Below are positions 3,531-30,028 of a stretch of DNA of 31,732 bases, piece after piece. The number at the start of each line of letters is the position of its first letter. Position 1 is the first letter of the stretch. Under the pieces are notes generated by a model. That model had not been told where the DNA came from. It made no database searches and was given only the letters and a program-made list of their open reading frames with translations. Origin of the DNA: a virus. Where the stretch lies: positions 1 to 31,732 of IMG/VR virus record IMGVR_UViG_3300035670_000885; one strand, written 5' to 3'. Both the position numbers and the translations under genes were made by a program.

Positions 3531-6500
3531 TGGATTGGGAACTGATCCTCGAGGCTGAGCGTCGCGGCATCCTGCCCGCTGATAAGGCTGAGTTGCTGTC
3601 CGAGGCGAGGCGTCGCGGATTGGTTCCGAGGCAACCCGCCATTGCGCAGCCTGCGGCGGCTGAGCCGCCCGCCGCGATTGCGGAGCCGACAGCGCCCCGT
3701 CAGCCCGAGCCGACGATCACGCCGACACCGGCAGTGCAACCTGCGGGACAAATCCCAGGTGCTGCGCCTGGCATGCAGGCGCCTGCGGCTGTAACCGACG
3801 TTTCGCGCCCCATGACTCTGCGAGGTAGTGTGGCAGGGGTTACGCGCGGTGCTGCGTTGCCGCTTGCGGGCGCTGCTGCCGGCATGGCAATGGGCGGGCC
3901 TCCGGGCGCGGTGGCTGGTGGGGCCGCTGGAGTGCTTGCGCCTGTGGTTGCCGATCCTCTGATCGACGCGTTCAACCGCATCTTTGGCACGAACCTGCCT
4001 CCAGCATCTCAGGCTTTTCAGGATCTGCTGAGCCGCGTCGGGATCCAGTCTGATCTTGCGCCTGGTGAGCGTTTCGTGCAGGAGGCGACTCAAGGCGTAG
4101 CTGCTGGCGCAACGATTCCCACGCAGGCCGGCAGGATTGCTCAGGCAGTCTCGGCCGGCACGCGAGCGGCGCCAGTGGTGCAGCCTATTGCACGCGCGGT
4201 CGAAGTCTCTGGCATGGGGCCAACTGGCGCGGGCGGCATCCCTGGGCGCGCAGGCATCAGTGCCCGCATGGGTGCTGGCGCAACTGCCGGCATGATCGGT
4301 GCTGCGCCTGTGTCGGAGACGCCCACAGACATTGCGATTGGAGGCGTCACTGGTGCTGTAGCTCCCCCGGTACTAACAGCGCTTGGCGAGGCGGGTAGGG
4401 GCGCAAGCCAACTGGTCAGGACAGTAATTCAGTCTCCTCAGGTAACCGCTGGCCGACAGATATTCCGCGACATTGGCGGAACCGTGGGCTCTGCTGAAAG
4501 AACCATTGAGGCCATTCGCGGCGGATTGCGTGTGCCGACGACTCCAGGGTTCAAGCCGACTTTGCCTGAAATCATTGTTGCCGGTGGCGGAGAGCCGCCC
4601 GTGACGCTATCTGCTCGGGCCGACAGAATCGTCGGCAGTTCGCCAGAAACTGCAAGGCAGGTGGCCACGCTGATGAACGAGCGTATCGGCGCTTTGCAAG
4701 CACAACTGGTGCGTATCAATCAGCAGATTGACCAGCAAGGCGCCGTCTTGCGGCCTGAGGCGCTGGAAAACCTGCGGCAGACGCGCGATGCCATCCTGCG
4801 CAACATTGAGCAAGAGGGTACGGCTGCAGAAGACGCGCTCAGGGCCCTCACCTCAAGGCTTCCGCGCGCCCCCCAGGCGCAGGGCGAAGTGATTGCCGGG
4901 CGGTTGAGGGAACTTGACGAGTTGACCACCAGGGAGCAAGTTGACCCGCGCTATGAGACGGCAAAGCGCTTGGGCGGCGAGGTGGCAAACATCGAGATGA
5001 CAGATATCGCCAGAGCGGTGGAGTCTGTTCTTGGTAAGCCAATACATACGTTTGACCCAACCACAGGGCCAAAAATTGCCCGCATTTTGCAGAAAGTGGT
5101 GCCACAACCCACTTCGCCCGCAGGATCCGTTGTCGATCCGACATCGACAGTGCAGCCGCCCAAAGTGATGGCTACGCTTCGGGTGGCGCACGACATACGA
5201 TCTGCGATTAACAATGAGATGAAAAACGCAGTTCGTGCGCAAGATTTCCAGCGCGAAAGCAGCCTGATGGAGATCAAGCGAGCGATTGACGGCGCAATCG
5301 AATCAGCACCAGCGCTGCCGCAAGAGGCAAAAGACGCGTATCGCGGCGCCAACGAGTATTTTTCGACGGTGTACGCGCCCCGTTTCCGGGAGCGCGAAGC
5401 CGGTCAAGCGCTGGCTGAAACAACATTCGGCCGCACCTACATTGAGCCGCCGCAGATCGTAGATCGCTTTTTTGATGACATCGGGACGGCGCAGCAGTTT
5501 GTGCGCACATTTGCCGGCGATCCGCAGGCATATGAAGCCATGCGCAATGGCATCCTTGGCAAGTTCCGGCTTGCCGTCGTAGACCCCCAGACGCGCATGG
5601 TTGATGCCGGCAGGGCCGCGAAGTTTTTGCAAGACAACCAAGAAGTGCTGGATGTGTTTGAGAACTCCGGTATGCGCGTGCGCTATCAGTTGGAGAACTT
5701 TCAAGCGGCATCGAGACTGACTGGTGAGTATCTGGACAGTCTGAAGGCCCGCATCAAGGGCTTGGGCGAAAAGACCAACGCGCAGTTCATCGACTACATC
5801 CTGTCAGACCCGGCGCGCATGCAGCGCGTGTTGCGGGAAACCGATGCGGACGGGAAAGAGGTCATTCGCGGCATTGTCGCTACCGATCTGAACCGTATGC
5901 TCACCAGAGCGCCCGACGGCGAACCGCTGACAGAGGCCGGCGTGTCTAAGGTCATCTCGTCCATCCTCGACAGCACGGGCAACCTCAAAGGGTCGTACAA
6001 GATGATCCTTGGCGAAGACCTAAGCCGTCAGTTCTTGGACAGGGCGCGCGGTCTGCGGACGCTGATTGCTGTGCAGAAGGAGCCGATGCTTCAGCGCGAA
6101 ACGGCTGTTGCGCCCGCGCTTGAAAAGCTCCGGTACACCCCGGAGCAACTGACGGATCTGCAAGTCGTCATTGATGACATCCGCAGGGCCAAAGCGGTTG
6201 CAAGCGCTGCCGCCGAAGGCAAGAAGTCGCCAGAACCATCAGGCAGGGATGTGTTTGAAGAAGAGGGTCGTGGCGCTCCACTGCGGCCCGACAAGCTCAA
6301 CCTTCTCAACCGTGCATACACGTTCTTCCGAAACACCTACCTGAGCCTGCAAGATCGTGTCAGCCCAAAGGTTGCGGCAGAACTGTCGCACATGATCTAC
6401 AACAACCCTGAGGCGGCCATCAAGGCCCTGCAGGATGAAGTCAGGCGCGCGCAGCGTGTGGCCAAGCCGGCAGGCGTTTCGCGCATCGCGCCCGCTATGA

Positions 6501-10531: not shown

Positions 10532-10664
10532 GATTCCTCTCCTTCCACCCAATTTCCATATTCAACCAGCCGATGCCGATCCAAAAACCGTGCAGGTCGT
10601 CTCGCCCGAACCCAAGTGCTGGCCACACCAAGCAGTGCGGTTGGTTTCGCTCAAAGTACATCAT
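10524..10664 (-). CDS. Small aromatic-rich early protein
   Basis: 46 residues from ATG 10664 (or 10661), with AAGGAGAAAAACGC upstream. The sequence is rich in Trp, Phe, Tyr and Gly (CLVWPALGFGRDDLHGFWIG). No family is recognised. The start overlaps the TGA of the upstream gene and the stop overlaps the next ATG, which argues that it is translated. Confidence 0.55.
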   Translation of the reverse strand: MMYFERNQPHCLVWPALGFGRDDLHGFWIGIGWLNMEIGWKERNHD

Positions 10665-11338
10665 GCGTTTTTCTCCTTCAGCTTGGCCTCGACGGCGCGG
10701 GCGAAAACCAGATTCCACCCACCCTGCTGCCCGGGCGTCTCAATGCCCATGCGTCGAATCTCCTTATCCGTCAACCCCTGCCACTCTCGGCGGAATGGGT
10801 GGGTGTAGAGAGGCTCCCACCCAAGTGCCAGTGCCCTATCTGCTGGCGGCATGTTCTCCGCATGTCCGAGCAAGTAGTGGAGCTTGTGAATCCATGCCAC
10901 CGGCTCCTGCTCCTCCTGCGCCAGCGCAGCCTTAACTGCGGTGATAGCCTTCGCAATCTTCTGCACATCCGCATCCATCGCAGCGTGCCGCTCGGGCCTG
11001 TACCCGGCCATCGCAGCGTGGTACTGCGCCGCTTCAGCCTGCGCAGCGGCGTAGCCGATTTCAAGCGCCTCCAGTATCTGCGGCGGATTGCGACAGCAGT
11101 CGATTACCTCACACACGCCGTCTTCGGCGATGTCGCAGGGGGTTTGTGCAGCCCCATCCAATCCCCGCGCACACACCGCACAGAGCTTGGCACGCTCGCA
11201 GGTTTCGCCGCACTGGTTGCGTGGTTCGGGCTGCGCCAGCGCTTTGCGGAGGGCGACGGCTGCTCGCAGTTGGATGTCAGGGTGTTCAGAGTCCAACGCC
11301 TCCAGCGCCTGCTGGGCGGCTTCGCGTAGGGTGGTCAT
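10661..11338 (-). CDS. Phage early protein with PVAW...PLYTHP module
   Basis: 225 residues from ATG 11338; the longer open frame upstream overlaps the neighbouring gene and is rejected. The N-terminus is a helical repeat-like region (EAAQQALEALDSEHPDI), followed by a cysteine cluster (C43 to C82, eight cysteines). The C-terminal part has EPVAWIHKLHYLL and EPLYTHP (about 145-181), then WQGLTDKEIRRMG. This PVAW/PLYTHP module is very common in early proteins of proteobacterial phages. Its function is not established. The overlap with both neighbours places it in the early operon. Confidence 0.75.
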   Translation of the reverse strand: MTTLREAAQQALEALDSEHPDIQLRAAVALRKALAQPEPRNQCGETCERAKLCAVCARGLDGAAQTPCDIAEDGVCEVIDCCRNPPQILEALEIGYAAAQAEAAQYHAAMAGYRPERHAAMDADVQKIAKAITAVKAALAQEEQEPVAWIHKLHYLLGHAENMPPADRALALGWEPLYTHPFRREWQGLTDKEIRRMGIETPGQQGGWNLVFARAVEAKLKEKNA

Positions 11339-11568
11339 ACCAACACCTCCGCAATCACCAGCCCCAGCAATATCGCCACGGCAGCGATCGCCGTAGCCTG
11401 CACCAGCGCAGACGGCTTCGGCCGAGGCCACAGATCCGGCGTCGGGGTAGACGCCTCGCGGTATGGGCACGCCCGGCCCTGGGCGCACAGGCCGTCGCAG
11501 CATTGGCGGTCACGCAGCACTGTGGGCTCGGTGCCGTCGGTGAACTCGATGTCTCGGTATTGGGTCAT
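11335..11568 (-). CDS. Small protein with cysteine cluster and C-terminal TM segment
   Basis: 77 residues from ATG 11568, with GGAGGAACAGAA just upstream. Residues about 20-35 contain CCDGLCAQGRACPY. Residues 53-75 form one hydrophobic membrane segment (ALVQATAIAAVAILLGLVIA). The cysteine-rich N-terminal domain would lie on one side of the inner membrane. Function is unknown. The stop overlaps the downstream start by 4 bases and the start overlaps the upstream stop. Confidence 0.65.
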   Translation of the reverse strand: MTQYRDIEFTDGTEPTVLRDRQCCDGLCAQGRACPYREASTPTPDLWPRPKPSALVQATAIAAVAILLGLVIAEVLV

Positions 11569-11894
11569 TTCTGTTCCTCCGCTTTGGCGACTGCTGCGCG
11601 GCACGCCGTTTCCGAGTCGCGGCACATTTGCAGGCGCTGGTAGAAGTCGGCCTTGCTGTGGTCGTCTTCTGCCTCGTACCAGGCAATCACCAGCTTTGCC
11701 GCCGCCAACAAATCAGGCGCGGCGGAAATCAGTTGCGCATTTGCTTCATGCTCTGGCTCTCGGCTCTTGTTGATGCTGGCTATGGCCCAGTCGCTCGGTC
11801 GGCCATCAGGCAGCTTGCCGTGATTGGTCACAACTGTGTGCGTCCATTCATCGAATCTGCGATAGTGCCACGGCCCAGGCGTGTGCTTACTCAT
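11565..11894 (-). CDS. Conserved phage early protein (KHTPGPWH / NAQLISAAPDLL type)
   Basis: 109 residues from ATG 11894, which overlaps the TGA of the preceding small gene. It has the hallmark start SKHTPGPWHYRR and the central EANAQLISAAPDLLAAAKLVI seen in a widespread but uncharacterised family of phage and prophage proteins. The rest is helical. No catalytic residues are evident. I infer an early, non-structural role from its operon. Confidence 0.75.
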   Translation of the reverse strand: MSKHTPGPWHYRRFDEWTHTVVTNHGKLPDGRPSDWAIASINKSREPEHEANAQLISAAPDLLAAAKLVIAWYEAEDDHSKADFYQRLQMCRDSETACRAAVAKAEEQK

Positions 11895-12064
11895 ATTCCA
11901 CTCCACCAGATTGCAGCCAGAGTTCCAACAGCCACGCCGATAAACGTAGCCAGCACGATGCGCCCCCAACGGATGCGCGGCGGCGAGCACTCGATGCAGT
12001 ACGGGTGGCGGTGAGGCCACGCTTCAAGCACGGTGCGGGGGTAGCGGCGGGTGGTGGGGGTCAT
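11891..12064 (-). CDS. Small membrane protein, 57 residues
   Basis: Start ATG 12064 overlaps the TGA of the upstream HTH gene, and its own TGA (11891-11893) overlaps the next ATG, so the gene is fitted exactly between neighbours. The N-terminal half is basic with CIEC and a histidine pair. Residues 35-54 form one TM segment (IVLATFIGVAVGTLAAIWW). Function is unknown; a small early inner-membrane protein. Confidence 0.6.
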   Translation of the reverse strand: MTPTTRRYPRTVLEAWPHRHPYCIECSPPRIRWGRIVLATFIGVAVGTLAAIWWSGI

Positions 12065-12240
12065 TTCTGCTGCTCCTTCTCAAACGCCTCGACATCCTTC
12101 AACCAGTAAAACACCTTCAACGGTCCGAGGCGGAACCACTGCGGCCCGATCCCGCGCCGTCGCCAATCCCGCAGGGTCGGCTCGCTCAGGCGCAGGCGCT
12201 TTGCGACCTCTGCGGTCGTCAAACGCACTGGTGTTTCCAT
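12061..12240 (-). CDS. HTH DNA-binding protein, excisionase/MerR-like
   Basis: 59 residues from ATG 12240. The fold pattern TTAEVAKRLRLSEPTLRDWRR (about 8-28) followed by a wing-like GIGPQWFRLGPLKVFYWLKDVEAFE matches HTH_17-type winged helices, used as excisionases or small regulators. Without an integrase nearby, a regulator of the early operon is more likely than an excisionase. The gene overlaps the annealing-protein gene by 1 base and the next gene by 4. Confidence 0.75.
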   Translation of the reverse strand: METPVRLTTAEVAKRLRLSEPTLRDWRRRGIGPQWFRLGPLKVFYWLKDVEAFEKEQQK

Positions 12241-13010
12241 CAGATCACCCCCTCTTCGGCTTCAATGATCTCGGGCTCTTCGCGGGCCTGGCGCTCGCGT
12301 TCCATTTCCTGCTTGATCTCGTCGACGCGCTTCTTGGCGGCCTCGACCACGCGGGTGCGTTCGGCGCCCTTGGGCATGCGCGAGATGTCAGCCCGCAGGA
12401 GTTCCATGCCTTCGATGGTGGCGGTCAGCGAAATGCGCTCCAGAAGCGATTCGACGTCCACGACGACCTCTGCCATTTCCACGGGTGCTGCGGGCGATTC
12501 TGGGGCGTTCTGACGCGCCTGGGGGGCGTTGCGAGCGGGCTCCATATCCTGCACCTCCTCGGGGGTGTAGGTGCCCACAGTCACGCCCGGATAGACCGTG
12601 CGGATGCCCTCGGAGATGCACCTGGCGCGAAGCATGGCGCGCGGGTACTGATTCCACGTCGGGTTCTTGGTCAGGCCGGCACGCTTGGCCATGTCGATCG
12701 TCCAGTCGATCTCGACGCTGCCGCCCTGAGGGTGTGAGAACTCGCCGGCGACACGCTGGTCGGTCATCGACGTCCACTTGACCTTGCCGCCTGCGGCTTG
12801 AAACCGCGCCAGCATGGCGTCCGCCTTGAGCGCGGGGCGACCCTGGATGATGTGGTATTCCTGCACAGCCTTGGCGGGATGCAGGCCCTCGGCTTCGCAG
12901 ATAGCCATCAGCGCGATGGCCTGGTCGCGGGTGCGGACTCCGAAGAGGCCAGATCGGCAGAAAGCGTCTGCGAGTTGCAGTTGCTGTTCGAAAGGTACGA
13001 GTGCGGTCAT
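12240..13010 (-). CDS. RecT-like single-strand annealing protein (candidate)
   Basis: 256 residues from ATG 13010 (GGAGTCAAGC upstream). The core ALMAICEAEGLHPAKAVQEY, IIQGRPALKADAMLARFQAAGG, FSHPQGGSVEIDWTI and YPRAMLRARCISEGIRTVYPG is a pattern I associate with phage proteins annotated as RecT-like recombinases. The C-terminus (about 200-256) is charged and helical, as in annealing proteins. The YqaJ-type exonuclease gene two genes upstream strengthens the call: exonuclease and annealing protein form a two-component recombination system. It would anneal ssDNA during replication-linked recombination. Confidence 0.65.
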   Translation of the reverse strand: MTALVPFEQQLQLADAFCRSGLFGVRTRDQAIALMAICEAEGLHPAKAVQEYHIIQGRPALKADAMLARFQAAGGKVKWTSMTDQRVAGEFSHPQGGSVEIDWTIDMAKRAGLTKNPTWNQYPRAMLRARCISEGIRTVYPGVTVGTYTPEEVQDMEPARNAPQARQNAPESPAAPVEMAEVVVDVESLLERISLTATIEGMELLRADISRMPKGAERTRVVEAAKKRVDEIKQEMERERQAREEPEIIEAEEGVI

Positions 13011-13447
13011 GCTTGACTCCTGTACTTGAGGTTCCAACGCTTAGATGCTTCGTTGGCGCATTGATGGCAAATGCGTCTTCCCTGAGAGTTGACGCCCGTA
13101 TAGAGATGCCCCCTTGGGCAAGCTGTCCTAGTGCGTGCGGGACACTTATGACGCCCCTTTTTCACCATATCTTTTGAATTGTCTGATTTGCTCCCCAAAA
13201 ACAAATGCTGCGGATTGATGCATGTCTTTACGTCGCAGACATGAAGCACGCATGCTCCATTTGGGATGGAGCCTTTGAACGCAACAAATGATGCTCTATG
13301 GGCTCCAACATCTTTGTTGCCAATTTTTAGTTTTCCATATCCAGAGTTTCCAACGCTTTTTGCCCACAGCCAGCATCCGCTCATCGGCTCTGGAGACGCG
13401 CCATCCTGAAGGCGGCGCCGCAGAAGTTCAATTTCACTTGGCATCAT
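13007..13447 (-). CDS. Free-standing HNH endonuclease, probable homing type
   Basis: 146 residues from ATG 13447 (ATG 13444 also possible), with AAGGAAAGG upstream. Residues 66-83 (CVLHVCDVKTCINPQHLF) hold the canonical H69, N78 and H81 of the HNH_3 type. The N-terminal GCWLWAKSVGNSGYGKL segment is the usual DNA-recognition strand region, and a C-terminal zinc cluster is visible (C102, C110, H114, C127, C130). The gene is strikingly AT-rich compared with its neighbours, pointing to recent acquisition. It sits between the annealing protein and the next operon gene and overlaps the former by ATGA. Confidence 0.85.
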   Translation of the reverse strand: MMPSEIELLRRRLQDGASPEPMSGCWLWAKSVGNSGYGKLKIGNKDVGAHRASFVAFKGSIPNGACVLHVCDVKTCINPQHLFLGSKSDNSKDMVKKGRHKCPARTRTACPRGHLYTGVNSQGRRICHQCANEASKRWNLKYRSQA

Positions 13448-13463
13448 TGGCGCCTTTCCTTGT

Positions 13464-13715
13464 TCAGTCAGTCAGGCCTGCGGATTCGTCGGCAGGCGCG
13501 GCTTCGGGCAGGCCCACGGTTTCCACCATGACGCCGGAAGCCATCAGCGAGATGATGTCGTCGTGCGTGGCGGGCGCGATCACGAACTGCGGCGTGACGT
13601 GGCGCAGCACGTCTGCTGCGGTGTAGGCCCGCACCAGTCGCTCGTTGCCCTCCGCGTCCATCACAGTCCAGGCCTTCAAGGTGCGCACATAGGGGCGCTT
13701 CTTCGTATCGCTCAT
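13464..13715 (-). CDS. Small early protein between HNH and exonuclease genes
   Basis: 83 residues from ATG 13715, overlapping the exonuclease TGA (ATGA). The N-terminus is basic (SDTKKRPYVRTLKAW), the middle is mixed (LVRAYTAADVLRHVTPQFVIA) and the C-terminus is acidic. No family is recognised. Coupling to the exonuclease suggests a recombination-related accessory role, which is inference only. Confidence 0.7.
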   Translation of the reverse strand: MSDTKKRPYVRTLKAWTVMDAEGNERLVRAYTAADVLRHVTPQFVIAPATHDDIISLMASGVMVETVGLPEAAPADESAGLTD

Positions 13716-14347
13716 TTCTTGCTTTCCGCGAGACGCCGCAGCGCCTCGACTTGGGTGCCGACCTGCTGCAGGAAAAACGTAACCTTGGCCTCCAGGTCGG
13801 CAATGAAGCTCGGGTCACGTTGGATGCGCTGGACGTGCAACTGCAGCGCCTCAGGCATCCGGGGGTCGAAACTCACGAAATCGCACCACTCCCTCCCTGT
13901 GATCCAGAGCTGCCCCTGCACCTGCGGGATGTGATCCGACGGCATGCCGTTCAGCAGCGTTTCGATATGCACGGCGGTGCTGTATGGGCACTTGATCTCA
14001 ATCAGCCCGTCCCAGTCCACCAGGCCGTCAGGCGAACAGCCTGCCAGCAGGGTGTCGTGGGCCACGAAGCCGGTTTCCTCCACGATGCGGCCGGTGATGC
14101 GCTCGTAGGCTGCGCGGGCTGCGGGCTCCTGCTCGGTGCCCCAGGTCATGGCGGCAGTGGTGTAGCGCTGGATCGGCTGCTGCGTCAGGCGCTCGACCAC
14201 CAGTTCTGTAAGGTAGTCGCGCTGGGCCTGTGCCGGTGCGCCGGATTTCAGCGCGGCGATGACGTCGCGGAACCGGCTGGCCGTGGCCTTGCCCAGGCGG
14301 GCGGCGTACCAGTCTTCAGACCGCTGGGTGGCGGTTTCGAGGATCAT
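13712..14347 (-). CDS. YqaJ-type viral exonuclease/recombinase
   Basis: 211 residues from ATG 14347; the much longer open frame upstream is a shadow of other genes. The start ILETATQRSEDWYAARLGKATASRF is the classic YqaJ N-terminus. PD-(D/E)XK residues are visible: E74 in WGTEQEP, D107 in CSPDGLVDWDG, and E117/K119 in LIEIKCP. Length is normal for lambda-exonuclease-like enzymes. It should digest dsDNA ends 5' to 3' and hand the ssDNA to the annealing protein encoded downstream. It overlaps both neighbours by 4 bases. Confidence 0.9.
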   Translation of the reverse strand: MILETATQRSEDWYAARLGKATASRFRDVIAALKSGAPAQAQRDYLTELVVERLTQQPIQRYTTAAMTWGTEQEPAARAAYERITGRIVEETGFVAHDTLLAGCSPDGLVDWDGLIEIKCPYSTAVHIETLLNGMPSDHIPQVQGQLWITGREWCDFVSFDPRMPEALQLHVQRIQRDPSFIADLEAKVTFFLQQVGTQVEALRRLAESKK

Positions 14348-14520
14348 GCCTCCACCCCCACGTCGCCCTTGATGCGATCCAGCCGCATCTTCAGCAGTTC
14401 GACCTGGAGGCCAGCCTGAGCCCACAGGCGCCCGACTTGTTCGGGCGTCGGGCTGACGGGCATTGTTGAGACCTCGGCCAATATTGCGTAGATCTCCAGC
14501 ATTTGTGACATCGGTAGCAT
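14344..14520 (-). CDS. Small helical early protein
   Basis: 58 residues from ATG 14520, chosen because GAGGGGA lies seven bases upstream; a TTG at 14535 would overlap the previous stop but places the ribosome site inside the gene. It is helical (LEIYAILAEVS and VGRLWAQAGLQVELLKMRLDRIK) with no motif. Its stop overlaps the exonuclease start. Function is unknown. Confidence 0.6.
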   Translation of the reverse strand: MLPMSQMLEIYAILAEVSTMPVSPTPEQVGRLWAQAGLQVELLKMRLDRIKGDVGVEA

Positions 14521-16432: not shown

Positions 16433-16917
16433 GAAAACGCTCCACCTACCGCCCGCGCGGCATCAACCCAACCGCGCATCTCGTCGCCATCCACGGCGCA
16501 GCCCTACTCAGCAAAGACGACCGCACGGTCTGGGCGCTGGAACTGCGCGGCGCCCTTGACGCAGTGCGCGAGGCGCGGGCCACGCGCCAGCACTGGGATA
16601 CGATCTTCGACAGCGTGAACCTCGCCGAGGAACTCACACGCATGGGTCTGGCATCGGATCCGTCAGGCGTGATCCGTGACGCTCAGCAAGCGTGCGCGGA
16701 CATCATCCAGCGGATGCAGACCACCGGCACGCGGGCGGCGCGGGCGGGCGAACTGGCAGCGCTCTGGGACCTGGAGGCGGCGATGATCGACATCCTAGCC
16801 ACAGTGACCCACGCGGAGCGGTTTCGCGCCGAGGAGCGCATTCGGGCTCGGACGCGGGCGGCGTTAGCTGGGGGGATTCCGGGGGCTATCGTCGTCGAAT
16901 ATCGGGAGACAGCATGA
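16429..16917 (+). CDS. Replication-operon protein, RKRSTYRPRG family
   Basis: 162 residues from ATG 16429. The highly basic start MRKRSTYRPRGINPTAHLV is typical of an uncharacterised phage family (often MRKRSKYRPRG). The body is helical with no catalytic motif. Overlaps with the nuclease upstream and the primase-helicase downstream (ATGA at both ends) suggest coordinated expression and a possible role as a replication accessory or sensor. That role is inferred. Confidence 0.7.
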   Translation: MRKRSTYRPRGINPTAHLVAIHGAALLSKDDRTVWALELRGALDAVREARATRQHWDTIFDSVNLAEELTRMGLASDPSGVIRDAQQACADIIQRMQTTGTRAARAGELAALWDLEAAMIDILATVTHAERFRAEERIRARTRAALAGGIPGAIVVEYRETA

Positions 16918-19250
16918 CAACGAAACTCGACTTCACCGCACTCGCGCAGCGCCTGCTGATCTCTGCCGACACCCTCGTTCCCCAGTGGCTGCGCGACGGG
17001 CGCCGGCGGGGCCATGAGTGGGTCTGTGGCGACCTGGCGGGCGGCGAGGGCGATTCCTGCTCCGTCAACCTTCTGTCCGGCCGGTGGGCCGATTTCGCGA
17101 CCAGCGAACGCGGCGGGGATCTCATCAGCTTGTACGCCGCGATCCACGAGATCACGATGGGCGAAGCCTACCGCGAACTCAGCGACGAGGCGCCCGCCAG
17201 CGACGTGCCCGCCAAGCCTCCGCGCCCAGTGAAACCGCAGCGCGCGGTGATCACGCCAGTGCCCGCAGAGTCTGCCGATTACGACTGCATCCATCCCGTG
17301 CTCGGCGCGCCAAGCCAGCGCTGGACGTATTACGACGGCAACGGGGACGTGCTCGGGTACGTCGCCAGATACGACCCGCCCGACAGCCGTAAGCAGATTA
17401 TCCCGTGGACTTTCGCGGACGACGGCTGGGGCATGGGCCAGTGGCCGGCACCTCGACCGCTCTACCGCCTTCAGGAACTGGAGGCCCGCCACACTGACCC
17501 GGTGCTGATCGTCGAGGGCGAGAAAGCCGCAGACGCAGCGGCAGCGCTGGCAGGCTCGCCTTACGTCTCAACAACGTGGCCCGGTGGTGCGCAGGCACTG
17601 GGGCGGGCTGACTGGCGAGCGCTGCGCGGGCGCAGGGTGCTGCTGTGGCCCGATGCGGACGAGGCGGGCATCGCGGCCATGCAGCGGCTGGGCGAGATCC
17701 TGGCGCCGATCGCCAGCGAGATCAAAATCATCGACGTCAGCGGTCAGCCCGAGGGCTGGGACTGCGCGGACAGCGGCTGGACCCGATGGACGGCTGCGCG
17801 GTCGTGGATCGCGCCGAGAACGAGTGTGCTGCGCGGCCCAGAACCGCCGGCACCGCCACTGGGGCCGAAGCCCGAGGCGGCAGAAACGCAGGCCGCAGAG
17901 AAAGCCGTTCAGGCGCGGGACGTCTCGACGCTGGAGCCGTCGGAGTGGTACGCACGGTGGGCTTACATGATGCCCGATGACAGCTTCTTCGACCTGAAGG
18001 AGCGCACCGAAGTTTCCCGCGCTGCGTTCAGCGCGCTGTACCGCCATCAGCGCTGCACCTCGATCCATCCGGGTGCGAGCGGCGGGGCGCGACGGGTCGA
18101 TGCCGCAGTGAGTTTCGACGAGAACAGGTTAGCGATGGGCGCGAGGATTCTCGCGGGCGCAACCTACGCGCCGGGCGCCGCCAGTCTGTGCGAGCACCAA
18201 GGTCAGGTTTTCGGCAACAAATGGCGCGACGGCAGGCCGAAAATCCTCGACGCGATTGATCCGCAGCCGTGGCTCGATCACGTCGAGCGGCTGATTCCCG
18301 AGGAGTTCGAACGCAATCATCTGCTGGACGCGATGGCGTTCAAGGTCCAGAATCCCGGCGTGAAAATCAATCACGCGCTACTGATCGGTGGCGTGCAAGG
18401 CGCGGGCAAAGACAGCATGATCGCACCGCTCCTGTATGCGATCGGCGGCCAGCACAAACTGAATTGCGCGTCAGTTGAAACCGCAGAATTGCAGCAGCAG
18501 TGGGGATATTATCTCGAAAACGAGGTCATCATCTTCAACGAACTTCGGCAGTCCGAGGCAATTGACCGCAGGGCGCTGGAAAACAGGTTAAAGCCGATCC
18601 TTGCGGCGCCGCCAGAACTGCTGACCGTGCAGCGCAAGATGATGCATCCGATACAGGTGCGCAATCAGGCGCTGGTGCTGGCGATGACCAACTACCGGGA
18701 TGCTATTTCGATTCCGACAGAGGACCGGCGCTGGTTTGTCGTCTGGACGCATGCACCGAGGATGACGCAATCCGAGTCCGAGGAACTGTGGCGCTGGTTC
18801 CACGCGGGCGGGCTCCAGGCCGGGGCGCTGTATCTGCGGCGGCGGGATGTCTCGAAATTCTTGCCGGCAGCAACACCACCTTGGACGGAGGCGAAAAGCA
18901 TCATGGTGAACACCAGCAGATCCGCAGCCGAAGCGTGGCTCATCGAGCGCATCGAAAAGCGAATCGAGGAGTTCCGCTTGGGCCTGCTATCGGGCCCGTG
19001 GCAACCAGTGGTCGACCGCTTGCAGAATCAGGCGCCGACGCATATCCGGCTCAACCTGCAGGCGCTGCAGCATGCGTTGGCCGAGGCCGGGTGGACGGAT
19101 CTCGGCCTGTGCAAAAGCCGCACCTATCAGACTGCGCGCCATATCTGGGCGGCGCCAGACTGGAGCGGCAGCAAATCCGATGCACGGGACGCGACAGAGA
19201 CGCATCTGGCATCGAGGCCGGATGTTCGACCGTTCTATCGCGCCGGCTAA
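16914..19250 (+). CDS. Primase-helicase: TOPRIM domain plus superfamily 3-like ATPase
   Basis: 778 residues from ATG 16914; a longer frame upstream overlaps the previous gene and is rejected. Residues 35-75 look like a decayed primase zinc region (VCGDL...CSVNLLSGRWADFATSERGGDLISLYA) with only part of the cysteines. TOPRIM motifs are VLIVEGEKAADA (E201) and VLLWPDADEAG (D247, D249). The C-terminal ATPase has Walker A GGVQGAGKDS (492-501), Walker B VIIFNE (538-543) and a sensor region MTNYRDAISIPTEDRRWFVV (591-610). It should prime and unwind DNA at the phage fork. No separate polymerase is visible, so the host's is probably used. Confidence 0.85.
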   Translation: MTTKLDFTALAQRLLISADTLVPQWLRDGRRRGHEWVCGDLAGGEGDSCSVNLLSGRWADFATSERGGDLISLYAAIHEITMGEAYRELSDEAPASDVPAKPPRPVKPQRAVITPVPAESADYDCIHPVLGAPSQRWTYYDGNGDVLGYVARYDPPDSRKQIIPWTFADDGWGMGQWPAPRPLYRLQELEARHTDPVLIVEGEKAADAAAALAGSPYVSTTWPGGAQALGRADWRALRGRRVLLWPDADEAGIAAMQRLGEILAPIASEIKIIDVSGQPEGWDCADSGWTRWTAARSWIAPRTSVLRGPEPPAPPLGPKPEAAETQAAEKAVQARDVSTLEPSEWYARWAYMMPDDSFFDLKERTEVSRAAFSALYRHQRCTSIHPGASGGARRVDAAVSFDENRLAMGARILAGATYAPGAASLCEHQGQVFGNKWRDGRPKILDAIDPQPWLDHVERLIPEEFERNHLLDAMAFKVQNPGVKINHALLIGGVQGAGKDSMIAPLLYAIGGQHKLNCASVETAELQQQWGYYLENEVIIFNELRQSEAIDRRALENRLKPILAAPPELLTVQRKMMHPIQVRNQALVLAMTNYRDAISIPTEDRRWFVVWTHAPRMTQSESEELWRWFHAGGLQAGALYLRRRDVSKFLPAATPPWTEAKSIMVNTSRSAAEAWLIERIEKRIEEFRLGLLSGPWQPVVDRLQNQAPTHIRLNLQALQHALAEAGWTDLGLCKSRTYQTARHIWAAPDWSGSKSDARDATETHLASRPDVRPFYRAG

Positions 19251-23810: not shown

Positions 23811-24002
23811 TCAACCGCAGATCACCCAGTCACGCTGGCCAGTGATCCCCAGCTCGCGCGCCAGGGCTTCGATCTCGCGCTTATCGCTGGCGCGCATGGC
23901 TGCCCTGTGCGCTGCCGACAAAGTACGGGCCGCCAGGTCGGGCATGCCCAGGGCGACAGCCTTGCGGGCCGTCGCGGCGTCTCTCTGCTGCGTCTTCGTC
24001 AT
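23811..24002 (-). CDS. Small helical basic protein, first gene of the leftward accessory run
   Basis: 63 residues from ATG 24002 with GGAGG six bases upstream. It is wholly helical and Ala/Arg-rich (QQRDAATARKAVALGMPDLA and HRAAMRASDKREIEALAREL), ending GITGQRDWVICG. It could bind nucleic acid but has no HTH signature. It is the promoter-proximal gene of the - strand cluster, next to the repeat region. Confidence 0.6.
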   Translation of the reverse strand: MTKTQQRDAATARKAVALGMPDLAARTLSAAHRAAMRASDKREIEALARELGITGQRDWVICG

Positions 24003-24019: not shown

Positions 24020-24078
24020 GGCGCCGGACATCGGCGCCACGGATGCAGTGTCGCGCGGGAACCTTACGTGAACCTTAC
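24020..24078. promoter_or_regulatory. Hairpin and direct repeats upstream of the accessory operon
   Basis: GGCGCC (24020-24025) and GGCGCC (24033-24038) can pair across 7 bases. Two copies of AACCTTAC (24060-24067 and 24071-24078) repeat with an 11-base period, about one helical turn, as a protein-binding site would. No clear -35/-10 pair could be placed here. Confidence 0.35.
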
Positions 24079-24144
24079 AAATTGGGGTCGTGGCAGTGAT
24101 GTTGCTAGTCTGTGGCTTTGCGGTGGCGGTGACGCTTTACTCTG

Positions 24145-24261
24145 CGTGGCAATTGTGGCAATGCCATCAGAAAAGCATTGGGAGGTTTTGGATTGTATAC
24201 AGTATACATAATTATACGTATGTATATATGCTTTTGGGATCGCACTGCCACAATTGCCACG
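24145..24261. repeat. 117-bp symmetric inverted-repeat element with AT-rich core
   Basis: A 16-bp arm (24145-24160) is the perfect reverse complement of 24246-24261. After 10 bases on each side comes a second pair, AAAAGCAT (24171-24178) and ATGCTTTT (24228-24235). The 49-base core is AT-rich and contains GTATAC twice, ATAATTAT and ATACGTAT. Each 16-bp arm holds two GTGGCA units spaced 9 bases apart. The layout resembles an iteron-flanked unwinding element of a replication origin, but could be a large operator or a small mobile palindrome. Confidence 0.6.
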
Positions 24262-24418
24262 GGTGCCACGCCCTTATAAATCAACAACTTAGCGGTGCCT
24301 ATCGGTACCCACGGGACTGCCACGCCGACTGCCACACTTTCCAAGCTGCGCCCGTGGCAAATGTGGCACCGCCACCAGAAAAGCATCTCGGCGTTTTTGG
24401 GACTGCCACACCTGCCAC
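24246..24418. repeat. GTGGCA/TGCCAC iteron cluster and second, degenerate element
   Basis: TGCCAC starts at 24246, 24255 and 24264 (9-base spacing), then 24318 and 24330. GTGGCA starts at 24354 and 24363, and TGCCAC at 24404 and 24413. The segment 24354-24386 repeats the left half of the first element (GTGGCA pair, 10 bases, AAAAGCAT) 208 bases further on. TTTTGGGA then leads to the TGCCAC pair, so this copy has lost its AT-rich core. Confidence 0.6.
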
Positions 24419-24544
24419 GGGACAGCAGCGCCCCGATCGACCCCGACGGACCCTGCAAACCCTGCGCCTACGCGCTGCCGGCAGGACCAGGGCGGACCGG
24501 GACGGGCGCCGAGCGCACCAGGCCGACGGCCGCGGATACGGTAC

Positions 24545-24639: not shown

Positions 24640-24726
24640 CCGCACAAAATTTTTTTCCCGCGACGCTTTGGCCTCTCTCCGCACAAATTTTTTTGCATTC
24701 AAAAAAATCGCATTACACTCGCCCGA
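24640..24726 (+). promoter_or_regulatory. Probable terminase promoter giving a leaderless start
   Basis: TACACT (24714-24719) is a -10 candidate with T/A-rich DNA upstream and only a weak -35 (TTTTGC at 17 bases). Six bases separate it from the ATG at 24726, so transcription would start at or next to the A of that ATG. CCGCACAAA followed by a T-run occurs twice upstream (24640-24656 and 24680-24694). Confidence 0.4.
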
Positions 24727-25187
24727 TGTTCCGCGACCTACCGATCCGCGCCCGAGAACTCAAAGCCACCCCTGCGGTGCTGGAGCGCATTTACGAGGGC
24801 GCTCGCCTGGGCCTGAAGGGCGAATCGCTGGCGCTGGCTGCGGGTTTGCTGCCGGAGGAGTTTGCGCGGCTGAAGCTGATGGATCGCACGGCGGAAATTG
24901 CGGAGATGAAAGGCCGCGCCGACAGTGAGATGTCGATGTCCCGCGTGGTGTTCGAGGCCGCAGAGAATGGAGACGCGAAAGCGGCGCTGGAGTTTCTCCG
25001 TCACCGCCACGATTGGGTGGCAAAGCAGCAGGTGCAGGTCGACGTAAGCCAGCAGATCTCGATCACTGCGGCTCTGGAGCAGGCGCAGCGGCGCGTGCAG
25101 GCGATCGAAGATGCGGTGATCGTAGAGCCGAAGTCGCTGGCGCGGGCTGAGCCGCTGGCGCGGGAATCACTGGGGGCTGAGGTGTGA
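24726..25187 (+). CDS. Terminase small subunit
   Basis: 153 residues from ATG 24726; upstream in-frame starts exist but cross the T-rich promoter region. The N-terminal helices (TPAVLERIYEGARLGLKGES, ALAAGLLPEEFARL) form an HTH-like DNA-binding part. The middle contains AENGDAKAALEFLRHRHDWVAKQQVQVDV, a pattern common in phage small terminases. The C-terminus is a coiled coil (QQISITAALEQAQRRVQAIED), consistent with ring assembly. It should recognise the packaging site and recruit the large subunit. No Shine-Dalgarno sequence is visible. Confidence 0.8.
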   Translation: MFRDLPIRARELKATPAVLERIYEGARLGLKGESLALAAGLLPEEFARLKLMDRTAEIAEMKGRADSEMSMSRVVFEAAENGDAKAALEFLRHRHDWVAKQQVQVDVSQQISITAALEQAQRRVQAIEDAVIVEPKSLARAEPLARESLGAEV

Positions 25188-25267: not shown

Positions 25268-26803
25268 ATGCAGACCCCGAAATACACCCCGCAGGAAGAG
25301 CAAAACCTGATGGCGCGTATGTGGAGCGCCAAGCTCCGCGACGACCCGGAGGCGTGGGTGATGTTTGCACTGCCGTGGGGGGAACGCGGCACGCCGCTGG
25401 AAAAGCGCACCGGCCCGCGACGCTGGCAGCGGGAGATTCTGCGGAAGATTCGGGATCACATCGCGGCGAACGGCACGCGGGATATGTACGAGGTGATGCG
25501 CCTGGCGGTGGCCTCGGGGCGGGGGATCGGAAAGTCGGCGCTGGTCAGTTGGCTGGTGCTCTGGATGCTGTCGACGCGGATCGGCAGCAGTGTGATTGTG
25601 AGCGCGAACTCAGAGGCGCAGCTCCGCAGCGTGACTTGGGCCGAGATCACGAAGTGGCTCGCGATGATCATGCACTCGCACTGGTTCGAGATCAGCGCCA
25701 CGCGGATCGTGCCGGCGAAGTGGCTGACCGAACTGGTGGAGCGCGACCTGAAGAAGGGCACGCGGTACTGGGGCGCGGAGGGTAAGCTCTGGAGCGAGGA
25801 AAACCCGGATGCCTACGCTGGCGCGCACAACGACGACGGCATGATGGTCGTGTTTGACGAAGCCAGCGGCATCCCGGACAGTATCTGGAGCGTGGCTGCG
25901 GGCTTTTTTACGGAAAACACGCCGCACAGGTTCTGGTGCGCGTTCAGCAACCCACGGCGGAACACGGGGTATTTTTTCGAGTGCTTCCACGCCAAGCGGG
26001 ATTTCTGGGCGTCGGAGAGCATCGACGCTCGCACGGTGGAGGACACCGACAAGGGTGTGTACGAGGCGATCATTGCCGAATACGGCGAGGATTCCCGCGA
26101 GGCCCGCGTCGAGGTGTACGGGCAGTTCCCGTCTGACGGCGACGATCAGTTCATTACGCCAAAGCTGGTGGACGAAGCGATGGCGCGGGAGAAGTGGAAA
26201 GACGCTGACGCGCCGATTGTGCTGGGTGTGGACCCGGCCCGCACTGGGGGCGACTCCACCGTGATTGCGGTACGGCAGGGCAGGGATTTGCTGGCGCTGC
26301 ACCGGTATCGGGGCGATGACACGATGACGGTGGTGGGGCACGTGATTGAGGCGATTGAGCGGTATCGGCCGGCGCTGACGTGCATCGACGAGGGTGGCCT
26401 CGGATATGGGATACTGGACAGGCTGAACGAGCAGCGGTATAAGGTGCGCGGGGTGAATTTCGGGTGGAAGTCCAGCAGGCCAGTGATGTGGGGCAATAAG
26501 CGAGCCGAGATGTGGGGCGCGCTGCGCGACTGGCTGCGCACGGCCTCCGTCACGCCGGACAAGGCGCTGAAGGCAGACCTGACGGGTGTGCGGGCGAAGC
26601 CGGATTCGACGGGGAAGATTTTCCTGGAGTCGAAGAAGGAGATGAAAGCCCGTGGCCTGGCGAGCCCGGACGCGGCCGACGCGATCGCGGTGACGTTTGC
26701 GTTCCCGATCCGATCAGATGCCGATTTCTCCGCGACCCCGAAGTTGTCGGCGTATGCACTGCCGACGGTAAATTACTGGAACGCTGGGCGCGTGGGGGCG
26801 TGA
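25268..26803 (+). CDS. Terminase large subunit
   Basis: 511 residues from ATG 25268 (weak ribosome site). ATPase: Walker A SGRGIGKS (83-90), Walker B MMVVFDE (192-198) with catalytic E198, and coupling motif SNPRRNTG (227-234). Nuclease: D322 in LGVDPARTGGDST, D374 in CIDEGGLG, and D468/D471 in SPDAADAIAV, the RNase H-like acidic triad. Length is normal. It pumps DNA into the prohead through the portal and cuts the concatemer. With circularly permuted gene order, headful packaging is likely but not proven. Confidence 0.93.
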   Translation: MQTPKYTPQEEQNLMARMWSAKLRDDPEAWVMFALPWGERGTPLEKRTGPRRWQREILRKIRDHIAANGTRDMYEVMRLAVASGRGIGKSALVSWLVLWMLSTRIGSSVIVSANSEAQLRSVTWAEITKWLAMIMHSHWFEISATRIVPAKWLTELVERDLKKGTRYWGAEGKLWSEENPDAYAGAHNDDGMMVVFDEASGIPDSIWSVAAGFFTENTPHRFWCAFSNPRRNTGYFFECFHAKRDFWASESIDARTVEDTDKGVYEAIIAEYGEDSREARVEVYGQFPSDGDDQFITPKLVDEAMAREKWKDADAPIVLGVDPARTGGDSTVIAVRQGRDLLALHRYRGDDTMTVVGHVIEAIERYRPALTCIDEGGLGYGILDRLNEQRYKVRGVNFGWKSSRPVMWGNKRAEMWGALRDWLRTASVTPDKALKADLTGVRAKPDSTGKIFLESKKEMKARGLASPDAADAIAVTFAFPIRSDADFSATPKLSAYALPTVNYWNAGRVGA

Positions 26804-27979: not shown

Positions 27980-30028
27980 ATGGCCCGCATCTCCAATTCA
28001 CAGCGACTGCGTGACACCCACGCCGAAGCACTGCGGCGGTTTGACGAGATTCAGTCGGCGCTGAGAAACGAGCGCCTGCAGTGTCTGCAGGACCGCAGGT
28101 TTTACTCGATTGCCGGAGCGCAGTGGGAGGGTCCGCTGGAACAGCAGTACGAGAACAAGCCGAAGTTCGAGGTGAACAAGGTGGCGTTGGCGGTGCAGCG
28201 CGTGGTCAACGAATACCGGAACAACCGCATCACTGTGGATTTCGTCAGCCGCGACGGCTCGCCTACGGAGATGGCCGACGTGTGCAACAAGCTGTTCCGC
28301 GCCGATGAGCAGGACAGCACGGCGAACGAGGCGTATGACAACGCTTTCGAGGAAGCGGTAGGCGGCGGGTTCGGCGCCTGGCGGCTGAAGGCGGTGTACG
28401 AGGACGACGAAGACCCGGACAACGACAAGCAGCGCATCCGTATCGAGCCGATCTACGACGCCGACACCAGCGTGTATTTCGATCTGCAGGCCAAGCGGCA
28501 AGACAAGGCCGACGCCACGCATGCGTTTGTGCTGTACAGCGTCACGCGCGATGCGTACATCGAGAAATATGGCGACGACCCGACGACGTGGCCGAAAGAG
28601 GTGTACCAGACGTTTTTCGACTGGGATACGCCCGACGTCGTGTATGTCGCGGAGTATTACTGCATCGAAGAGGTCAACGAAAAACAGTTGATCTATCGGT
28701 CGTTGGACGGCACTGAGGAAAAGTATCTCGAAAGCGATTTTGAGAAAGACGAAACCCTCGAGGAAACGCTGGCAGCGATTGGCAGCGAAATGGTGCGCGA
28801 ACGCACGATCCGCAGGAAGCGCGTGCGCAAGTATCTGATGTCTGGCGGCAAGATCCTGAAGGACGACGGGTATATTGCCGGCAAGTGCATTCCGATCGTG
28901 CCGGTGTATGGCAAGCGCTGGTTCGTGGATAACATCGAGCGATGCATGGGTATCGTGCGACTGGCCAAGGATGCGCAGCGGCTGAAGAACATGCAGCTCA
29001 GCAAGCTGGGTGAAATCTCGGCGCTGTCCAGCATCGAAAAACCGATCATGACGCCCGAGCAGGTTGCCGGCCATCAGGTGATGTGGGCCAAGGACAACCT
29101 GGAGAACTACCCGTACCTGCTGGTGAACCCGATCACGGGGCCTGACGGCTCGATGCAGGTGTCCGGCCCGGTGGCTTACACAAAGTCTGCGGCCGTACCG
29201 CCTGCGATGGCTGCGCTGCTGCAGGTGACCGAGCAGGACATCGACGACATCCTAGGCAACCAGCGCGAGGGCGACAAGATCGTCAGCAACATCAGCGGCG
29301 ATGCCGTCGAGATGGTGCAGCAGCGGCTGGAAATGCAGGCGTTCCTGTACATGTCGAACTACGCCAAGGCGGTGCAGCGCTGTGGCGAGATCTGGCTGTC
29401 GATGGCCCGCGATGTGTACGTCGAGCCCAAGCGGAAGATGAAGGGCGTGGACGAGGTGGGCCGCGCGTCGACGATCGAGTTGATGCAGCCCGCGATGGAC
29501 GAAAACGGAGCGCTGACGCACCGCAACGACGTGACGCAGGCCACGCTGGATGTGGTGACGTCGGTGGGTCCGTCGTTTGCGACGCAGAGGGCGGCCACGC
29601 GGCGCACGCTGCTGTCAATGATGCAGTTTGCGCAGGATCCGCAGATCCAGAAGATGTTGCTGGCTGCGCTGATGCAGAACATCGAAGGCGACGGCGTGAA
29701 GGACGTGGCGAAGTTCATGCGCAAGGAAATGGTCGCTGCCGGCGTGATGGAGCCGACGCAGGAAGAAGCGCAGGCGCTGGCCCAGGCCGCGCAGAACCAG
29801 CAGCCGGATCCGAATGTGCTGTACATCCAAGCGGTGTCGGAGAAAGAGCGTGCGCAGGCGCAGAAGGCCCAAGCCGACAGCGTGAACGCGCTGGCCGACG
29901 CGCAGTTGAAGCGCGCGAAGGTGCAGGAAACGCTGGCAAAGATGAGTCTGGACGATCGCCGGATCGTGCTGGACACCATGATGGCGATGAACGAAATGGG
30001 AGCGCAACGTGGCAACGCAGTTCAGTGA
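27980..30028 (+). CDS. Portal protein, P22-like
   Basis: 682 residues from ATG 27980 with GGAAA upstream. The start HAEALRRFDEIQSALRNERL, then YENKPKFEVNKVALAVQRVVNEYRNNR, is the P22-type portal signature. The central wing/stem and crown regions follow, and the C-terminus (about 590-665) is a Gln/Ala-rich coiled coil that may form the barrel. The dodecameric ring at one vertex docks the terminase and later gp4/gp10-like adaptors. The gene overlaps the next by 20 bases. Confidence 0.92.
   Translation: MARISNSQRLRDTHAEALRRFDEIQSALRNERLQCLQDRRFYSIAGAQWEGPLEQQYENKPKFEVNKVALAVQRVVNEYRNNRITVDFVSRDGSPTEMADVCNKLFRADEQDSTANEAYDNAFEEAVGGGFGAWRLKAVYEDDEDPDNDKQRIRIEPIYDADTSVYFDLQAKRQDKADATHAFVLYSVTRDAYIEKYGDDPTTWPKEVYQTFFDWDTPDVVYVAEYYCIEEVNEKQLIYRSLDGTEEKYLESDFEKDETLEETLAAIGSEMVRERTIRRKRVRKYLMSGGKILKDDGYIAGKCIPIVPVYGKRWFVDNIERCMGIVRLAKDAQRLKNMQLSKLGEISALSSIEKPIMTPEQVAGHQVMWAKDNLENYPYLLVNPITGPDGSMQVSGPVAYTKSAAVPPAMAALLQVTEQDIDDILGNQREGDKIVSNISGDAVEMVQQRLEMQAFLYMSNYAKAVQRCGEIWLSMARDVYVEPKRKMKGVDEVGRASTIELMQPAMDENGALTHRNDVTQATLDVVTSVGPSFATQRAATRRTLLSMMQFAQDPQIQKMLLAALMQNIEGDGVKDVAKFMRKEMVAAGVMEPTQEEAQALAQAAQNQQPDPNVLYIQAVSEKERAQAQKAQADSVNALADAQLKRAKVQETLAKMSLDDRRIVLDTMMAMNEMGAQRGNAVQ

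Follow-up and report, generated by a model that had tools for sequence, protein, structure and literature searches.

What is the function of a symmetric inverted repeat that surrounds an A+T-rich core in a G+C-rich phage genome? The window, i.e. the whole stretch of DNA analysed here, comprises 31,732 bp (about 62 % G+C) and is a contig from an uncultured phage. The nested inverted repeat at positions 24145–24261 (no strand assigned) consists of perfect 16-bp arms at 24145–24160 (CGTGGCAATTGTGGCA) and 24246–24261, which are exact reverse complements and each carry two GTGGCA iterons, followed inwards by 10-nt gaps (24161–24170 and 24236–24245) and by the pair AAAAGCAT (24171–24178) and ATGCTTTT (24228–24235). 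These enclose a core of 49 nt (24179–24227, no strand assigned, 71 % A+T), proposed as a DNA-unwinding element, which contains the small palindromes GTATAC and TATACGTA and partly coincides with the 49-nt segment of highest A+T content in the window (78 %, starting at 24186). An earlier note on this DNA had described the 16-bp arms, the equal 10-base gaps, the 49-base AT-rich core in a GC-rich genome and the two GTGGCA units with 9-base spacing per arm; every one of these features was present on inspection of the sequence. This was the only perfect 16-bp inverted repeat with a separation of up to 200 bp in the whole window, and none of 200 block-shuffles of the window gave a perfect 16-bp inverted repeat.

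Although the 117-bp element is real, it forms only part of an array of about 330 bp, and the proposed origin spans approximately 24090–24420. The array itself (24090–24418, no strand assigned) comprises 12 GTGGCA hexamers, mostly arranged as pairs 9 bp apart and in both orientations, with five on the plus strand (24090, 24146, 24155, 24354 and 24363) and seven on the minus strand (24246, 24255, 24264, 24318, 24330, 24404 and 24413). The density of the hexamer was 12 in 24040–24440, compared with 0.23 per 400 bp elsewhere, and the array score was 42–50 for stretches covering 24090–24418 compared with 18 or less elsewhere in the window, where array scoring found no second array of comparable score. 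The iteron module recurs in partly degenerate form at 24353–24421 (no strand assigned; repeat families D2, I1, I3 and I6): a copy of the left half (24353–24397, 80 % identical) lies 208 bp downstream, inside the array, and is followed by an opposite iteron pair at 24404–24418. Contigs L087 and L088, which are identical in sequence here, share this array and its 208-bp module spacing, and L086 has a slightly diverged copy.

Small leftward genes extend to 24002 on the left of the array, and the first gene of this leftward operon, identified as an ORF and from relatives, occupies 23811–24002 (minus strand), which places the array between divergent transcription units. To the right follow the terminase small subunit gene terS (24726–25187, plus strand), the first gene right of the origin and a conserved landmark, terL for the terminase large subunit (25268–26803, plus strand), a gene of 682 aa where the portal gene would be expected and more rightward late genes. 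Neither an Rfam search nor a nucleotide search of a phage collection with the origin sequence gave a match.

Relatives were collected by means of TerL, and four further scans brought the set to 113 non-redundant helicase–origin pairs, of which 99 had a clear periodic word and were used for co-variation analysis. These contigs are metagenomic and often fragments; some were found in Burkholderiaceae or Rhodoferax bins, the hosts being uncertain. The comparison with related phages that the earlier note had suggested revealed that the element is kept in its place and layout with a different word: relatives carried an equivalent array at the same place upstream of terS, on both strands and with a 9-bp (in some cases 10-bp) period, built from words such as GTTGTC, ATGGCAG, ATGGGC, AGGGGTAT, ATGGGTCA, GTGGGGTA, TGTGGGCAA and others. 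Even phages with TerL 98 % (L006) and 96 % (L007) identical to that of the window had the words GTTGTCA and GGGGTAT, respectively. Summed over loci, short-range repeats in these regions were most often 9 bp apart. The A+T-rich stretch inside the arrays of relatives had a median A+T content of 78 % over 40 nt, and iterons faced it in 60 of the 99 origins. In the public phage genome MW202483, TTGGTAGTG repeats lie on both sides of an A+T-rich stretch. The motif AAAAGCAT (window positions 24171, 24379 and 24228) was found beside iterons in 11 of the 99 origins and in none after shuffling, and a subgroup of the origins may have it as an accessory motif.

The array scores of the 99 origins, which were selected for having a word so that the comparison describes them rather than giving an unbiased detection rate, had a median of 47, compared with a median of 0 and a maximum of 22.5 for 198 other 1300-bp stretches of the same contigs; block-shuffled origins scored 26 at most. 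Scores were only 0–24, with no clear array, for phage DSL-LC05 and for TerL-related loci that had no match to the helicase, indicating that the array depends on the helicase gene. Contig L164 was assigned to GTGGCA by hand in later tests, its four GTGGCAA copies having fallen under the automatic threshold. Two further kinds of repeat were noted at these loci. MW202483 has a second array beside its TTGGTAGTG origin (28200–28600, about 15 copies of GTAAAC/GTTTACA on both strands), and long unrelated tandem repeats (CGGCGGTC, GCCGTCA and TGACGATCAGC types), which were masked in the analysis, lie between the origin and terS in L036, L040, L025 and G040.

The helicase in question is a VapE/D5/NrS-1-type primase-helicase (16914–19250, plus strand; PHROG DNA primase, Pfam DUF5906), which matched the NrS-1 primase/helicase in a PDB profile search and NrS-1, SaPI5 PriRep1 and D5 by Foldseek. 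It was the sole early protein common to all array-bearing groups, including the group of the window and a polymerase-bearing group. Whereas the earlier note had seen no obvious initiator in this genome, we propose the primase-helicase as the origin-binding initiator, its C-terminal wing co-varying with the iteron word; the HNH/HTH gene of the 15–17 kb region, named in the note as a candidate binder, had no such co-variation support.

Other candidate readers were rejected. TerS was nearly identical in phages with different words: in 162 pairs TerS was at least 95 % identical yet the iterons differed, and wing identity in these pairs was 34 %, compared with 97 % in same-iteron pairs. In a joint model of 93 phages the wing had a coefficient of 0.92 (bootstrap 0.63–1.38), the only one clearly above zero, whilst that of TerS was not different from zero. 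A search of the genes between the helicase and the origin, prompted by a contig that seemed to break the helicase link (G027, below), revealed none that partitioned with the iteron word. A RecB-like exonuclease (371 aa, G028) was swapped between groups and had no homologue in the group of the window.

The gene complement around the helicase varied between the two groups. No DNA polymerase gene was recognized at 10–20 kb in the group of the window, where only RecT-like, YqaJ exonuclease, VRR-NUC and helicase genes were seen, whilst polymerase, SSB-like and RecB-like genes adjoin the helicase in relatives such as L151 (G028; 10579–14400). A protein judged by eye to be sliding-clamp-like (beta subunit) is encoded at 4829–5470 of G027, with homologues in G032, G018 and G022, and in polymerase-bearing relatives this gene belongs to the leftward block that adjoins the origin.

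Close relatives localize the co-variation to a short segment. The helicases of the window and of L163–L166 (word GTTGTC) are 92–94 % identical, and their C-terminal differences concentrate in CKSRTYQTARH as opposed to CASR(A/S)NPGKRH. L168, which otherwise resembles G008 (word ATGGCAG), carries GTTGTC iterons together with the ASR-NPGK wing, as L163–L166 do. In the window, the codons of this wing (GLCKSRTYQTARH), the proposed specificity determinant that would read the iteron, lie at 19104–19142 (plus strand). The AlphaFold model of the C-terminal domain (pLDDT 80–90) has the order helix-strand-helix-helix-strand-loop-strand, and the co-varying residues form the final strand-loop-strand, i.e. 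the wing of a predicted winged helix. The mean pLDDT of the whole helicase model was 64, which limits trust to the helicase core and the C-terminal domain; the isolated C-terminal domain gave no significant PDB fold match by Foldseek.

When segments of the protein were ranked for their ability to predict a shared iteron in the 99 helicase–origin pairs, the wing of about 13 residues came first of about 760 sliding windows, with a partial r of 0.52–0.66 (whole-helicase identity controlled, pairs at least 60 % identical), compared with 0.44–0.48 for the best one that was not in the final third of the C-terminal domain. A first column scan of the whole set had a wing-proximal residue on top but was noisy, and a first scan over all pairs favoured residues 669–684, the wing becoming first once pairs below 60 % identity were dropped. 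Among helicase pairs 88–99.5 % identical, the wing differed at 46–62 % of positions in all 21 pairs with different words but at only 2.8 % on average in the 277 pairs with the same word, whilst the rest of the protein differed by 6.9 and 3.9 %, respectively. Since the wing is nearly invariant in close pairs that share a word, it is not simply hypervariable. These pairs are not independent, and safer evidence comes from four separate contrasts, each with a Fisher p below 1e-4: window versus L163, G008 versus L168, L216 versus L214 and L287 versus L288. The wing was picked after the first of these had been seen; the other three contrasts, the scan and the out-of-sample contig L354 came later.

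L354 has a wing (KSRRHDSKKH) like that of L277 and 12 copies of the L277 iteron, TGTGGAC, whilst its nearest whole protein, that of L276, has a different word, GTGGGT. When the word was predicted from neighbours with a core identity below 0.9, the wing was correct in 70 % of cases, the core in 47 % and a random choice in 15 %. Prediction by the wing fell to 28 % at core identities below 0.7; poor prediction below about 70 % core identity indicates that the code is local rather than universal.

One contig ran against the pattern. G027 (L130) pairs a GTGGGGTA-type helicase wing with ATGGGTCA iterons. Up to about 5.1 kb it matches L249, a contig with a GTGGGGTA-type origin, at 100 % identity; the part that holds its own origin matches L265 (ATGGGTCA type) at about 99 %, and the switch, at about 5100–5700, is abrupt. 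Judged from these identities, G027 looks like a chimeric assembly or a very recent recombinant of two phages that differ in origin word. The close-pair, joint-model and neighbour-prediction tests were run without this contig; one sliding-window scan included it, and the wing was still first there for pairs 60–99 % identical. The co-variation and the predicted structure suggest that the wing of the primase-helicase very probably reads the iteron word.

The earlier note had proposed cumulative GC skew as a check, and here the outcome was split: the minimum lay at the origin in two of seven genomes (G048 and G012) and elsewhere in five. The skew is confounded by divergent transcription and, being inconsistent as well, is weak evidence. 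A match to the integration host factor (IHF) consensus WATCAANNNNTTR at 24279–24291 (plus strand; AATCAACAACTTA) is a possible accessory site; it recurs in L010, but matches occurred in seven of the 99 origins with three expected, and the site was rejected as a conserved part of the origin. No DnaA box (TTATCCACA) with up to two mismatches was found in the origin of the window, and a DnaA-dependent, oriC-like origin was rejected, boxes with up to one mismatch being present in 12 of the 99 origins compared with 16 after shuffling. Some iteron words (TGTGGACAA and TGTGGGCAA, in the origins of L277, L287, L305 and L317) are close to the DnaA box TGTGGATAA, and TGTGGATAA-like copies are mixed into the array of L354 (11981–12720), although DnaA-box-like sites were not enriched overall.

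The position of the array between divergent transcription units and the lack of a consistent skew minimum would also suit a helicase-bound control element, such as an operator or replication-control locus that switches the divergent operons or limits copy number whilst replication starts elsewhere. Iterons bound by initiators often also act in control. The recurrence of the A+T-rich stretch in the arrays of relatives, most of which have iterons facing it, and the uniqueness of the array in the window nevertheless make such an element an unlikely explanation. That the array adjoins terS in all relatives raises the possibility of a packaging site of the pac or cos type read by the small terminase; we consider this very improbable, as arrays with different words accompany nearly identical TerS proteins, the TerS coefficient did not differ from zero and TerL relatives without the helicase have no clear array.

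The earlier note had itself mentioned a large operator or a mobile palindrome. Symmetric repeats between divergent operons would suit a large operator bound by a phage repressor or by the HNH/HTH protein, but homologues of the HNH gene were few among the array-bearing relatives and, in pairs otherwise 94 % identical, the iteron follows a segment of the helicase, so an operator is disfavoured and we give it very little credence. The exact sequence is absent from the closest TerL relatives, as might be expected if it were mobile, or no more than a palindrome, and had no function; these relatives have, however, an equivalent array with another word in the same place and a matching change in the wing, a co-variation that refutes this reading and leaves it scarcely credible.

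The best-supported explanation of the element is therefore an origin that combines iterons with an A+T-rich segment. The replication origin proposed in the earlier note draws this support from the array, its kept layout and place in relatives, its helicase dependence, the linked change of word and helicase wing and the prediction of a winged-helix fold, all computed here; origin activity is a prediction. The element is very likely the core of a phage replication origin, with iterons that would be bound by the C-terminal wing of the helicase in the manner of SaPI and SCCmec Rep proteins. We infer a sequence of physical binding, melting, helicase loading and origin activity in which about a dozen hexamer iterons, mostly in pairs spaced by 9 bp, face the A+T-rich core and the C-terminal winged-helix domain of the primase-helicase would bind these double-stranded iterons, mainly via its wing. 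Helicase hexamers would nucleate on the iterons beside the core, which would melt and admit the helicase, and priming would then start forks between the divergent operons. Iteron word and wing, changing together, would constitute an exchangeable specificity lock.

Short iterons in both orientations (type I; ori and crr) are also bound by the alpha protein of phage P4, a primase-helicase, but P4 differs from the origin of the window in needing two separated sites. The iterons of SaPI origins are short and are recognized by the C-terminal domain of the Rep/PriRep initiator, a D5/Primase_Cterm-type helicase (Ubeda et al., 2007, as described in PMC7581432), and the helicase of the window fold-matches SaPI5 PriRep1. 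In SaPIs rep is immediately followed by the origin, whereas in the window about 5 kb, including a gene block of opposite orientation, separate the helicase gene from the origin downstream of it, and the window belongs to a phage rather than a satellite, with many natural specificities resolved to a wing of about 10 residues. Like the SaPI Rep helicases, the D5-type helicase Cch2 of SCCmec binds iterons via its C-terminal domain, in this case short direct repeats (AAGTG), but its putative origin has only three and there is no co-variation series (PMC7581432). The closest solved helicase by profile and fold is the NrS-1 primase-polymerase/helicase (6k9c), for which two copies of an 8-nt recognition sequence, not an iteron array, form the possible origin (PMC7102993).

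Among unrelated initiators, iteron and DNA-binding domain likewise co-vary and swap as a module in the RepA_N initiator and origin of PLE, together with Odn of ICP1, and origin swaps in PLE tested this module; the initiator family is different, however, the repeats are semi-palindromic and of about 30 bp, and there are two specificity groups (PMC8263062). Geminiviruses have iterons of 5–6 nt at conserved positions, with a word that differs among close relatives and is matched by Rep, but this is an unrelated rolling-circle Rep of plant viruses (PMC12548392).

Given the SaPI and SCCmec Rep precedent, the general mechanism is already known; what is new here is a phage group with many natural specificities localized to one wing, and a limited search of the open-access literature found no report of such wing-localized origin specificities in phages. 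A candidate origin and probable initiator of an uncultured phage group were thus identified from sequence alone, together with about 15 naturally occurring origin words and their matching wings, a series in which some helicases are about 94 % identical and the changes are concentrated in the wing. A further question is why closely related phages should have diverged into so many origin words. One answer, which we advance tentatively and with slightly less than even confidence, is that in this freshwater phage family a wing of about 10 residues, and not the recognition helix, has been rewritten to match at least a dozen words as a natural recognition code for initiation, the orthogonal origin–initiator pairs being driven apart by competition among co-infecting relatives, satellites or origin-directed nucleases. 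The series makes a change of initiator specificity directly testable and could supply mutually compatible replication origins.
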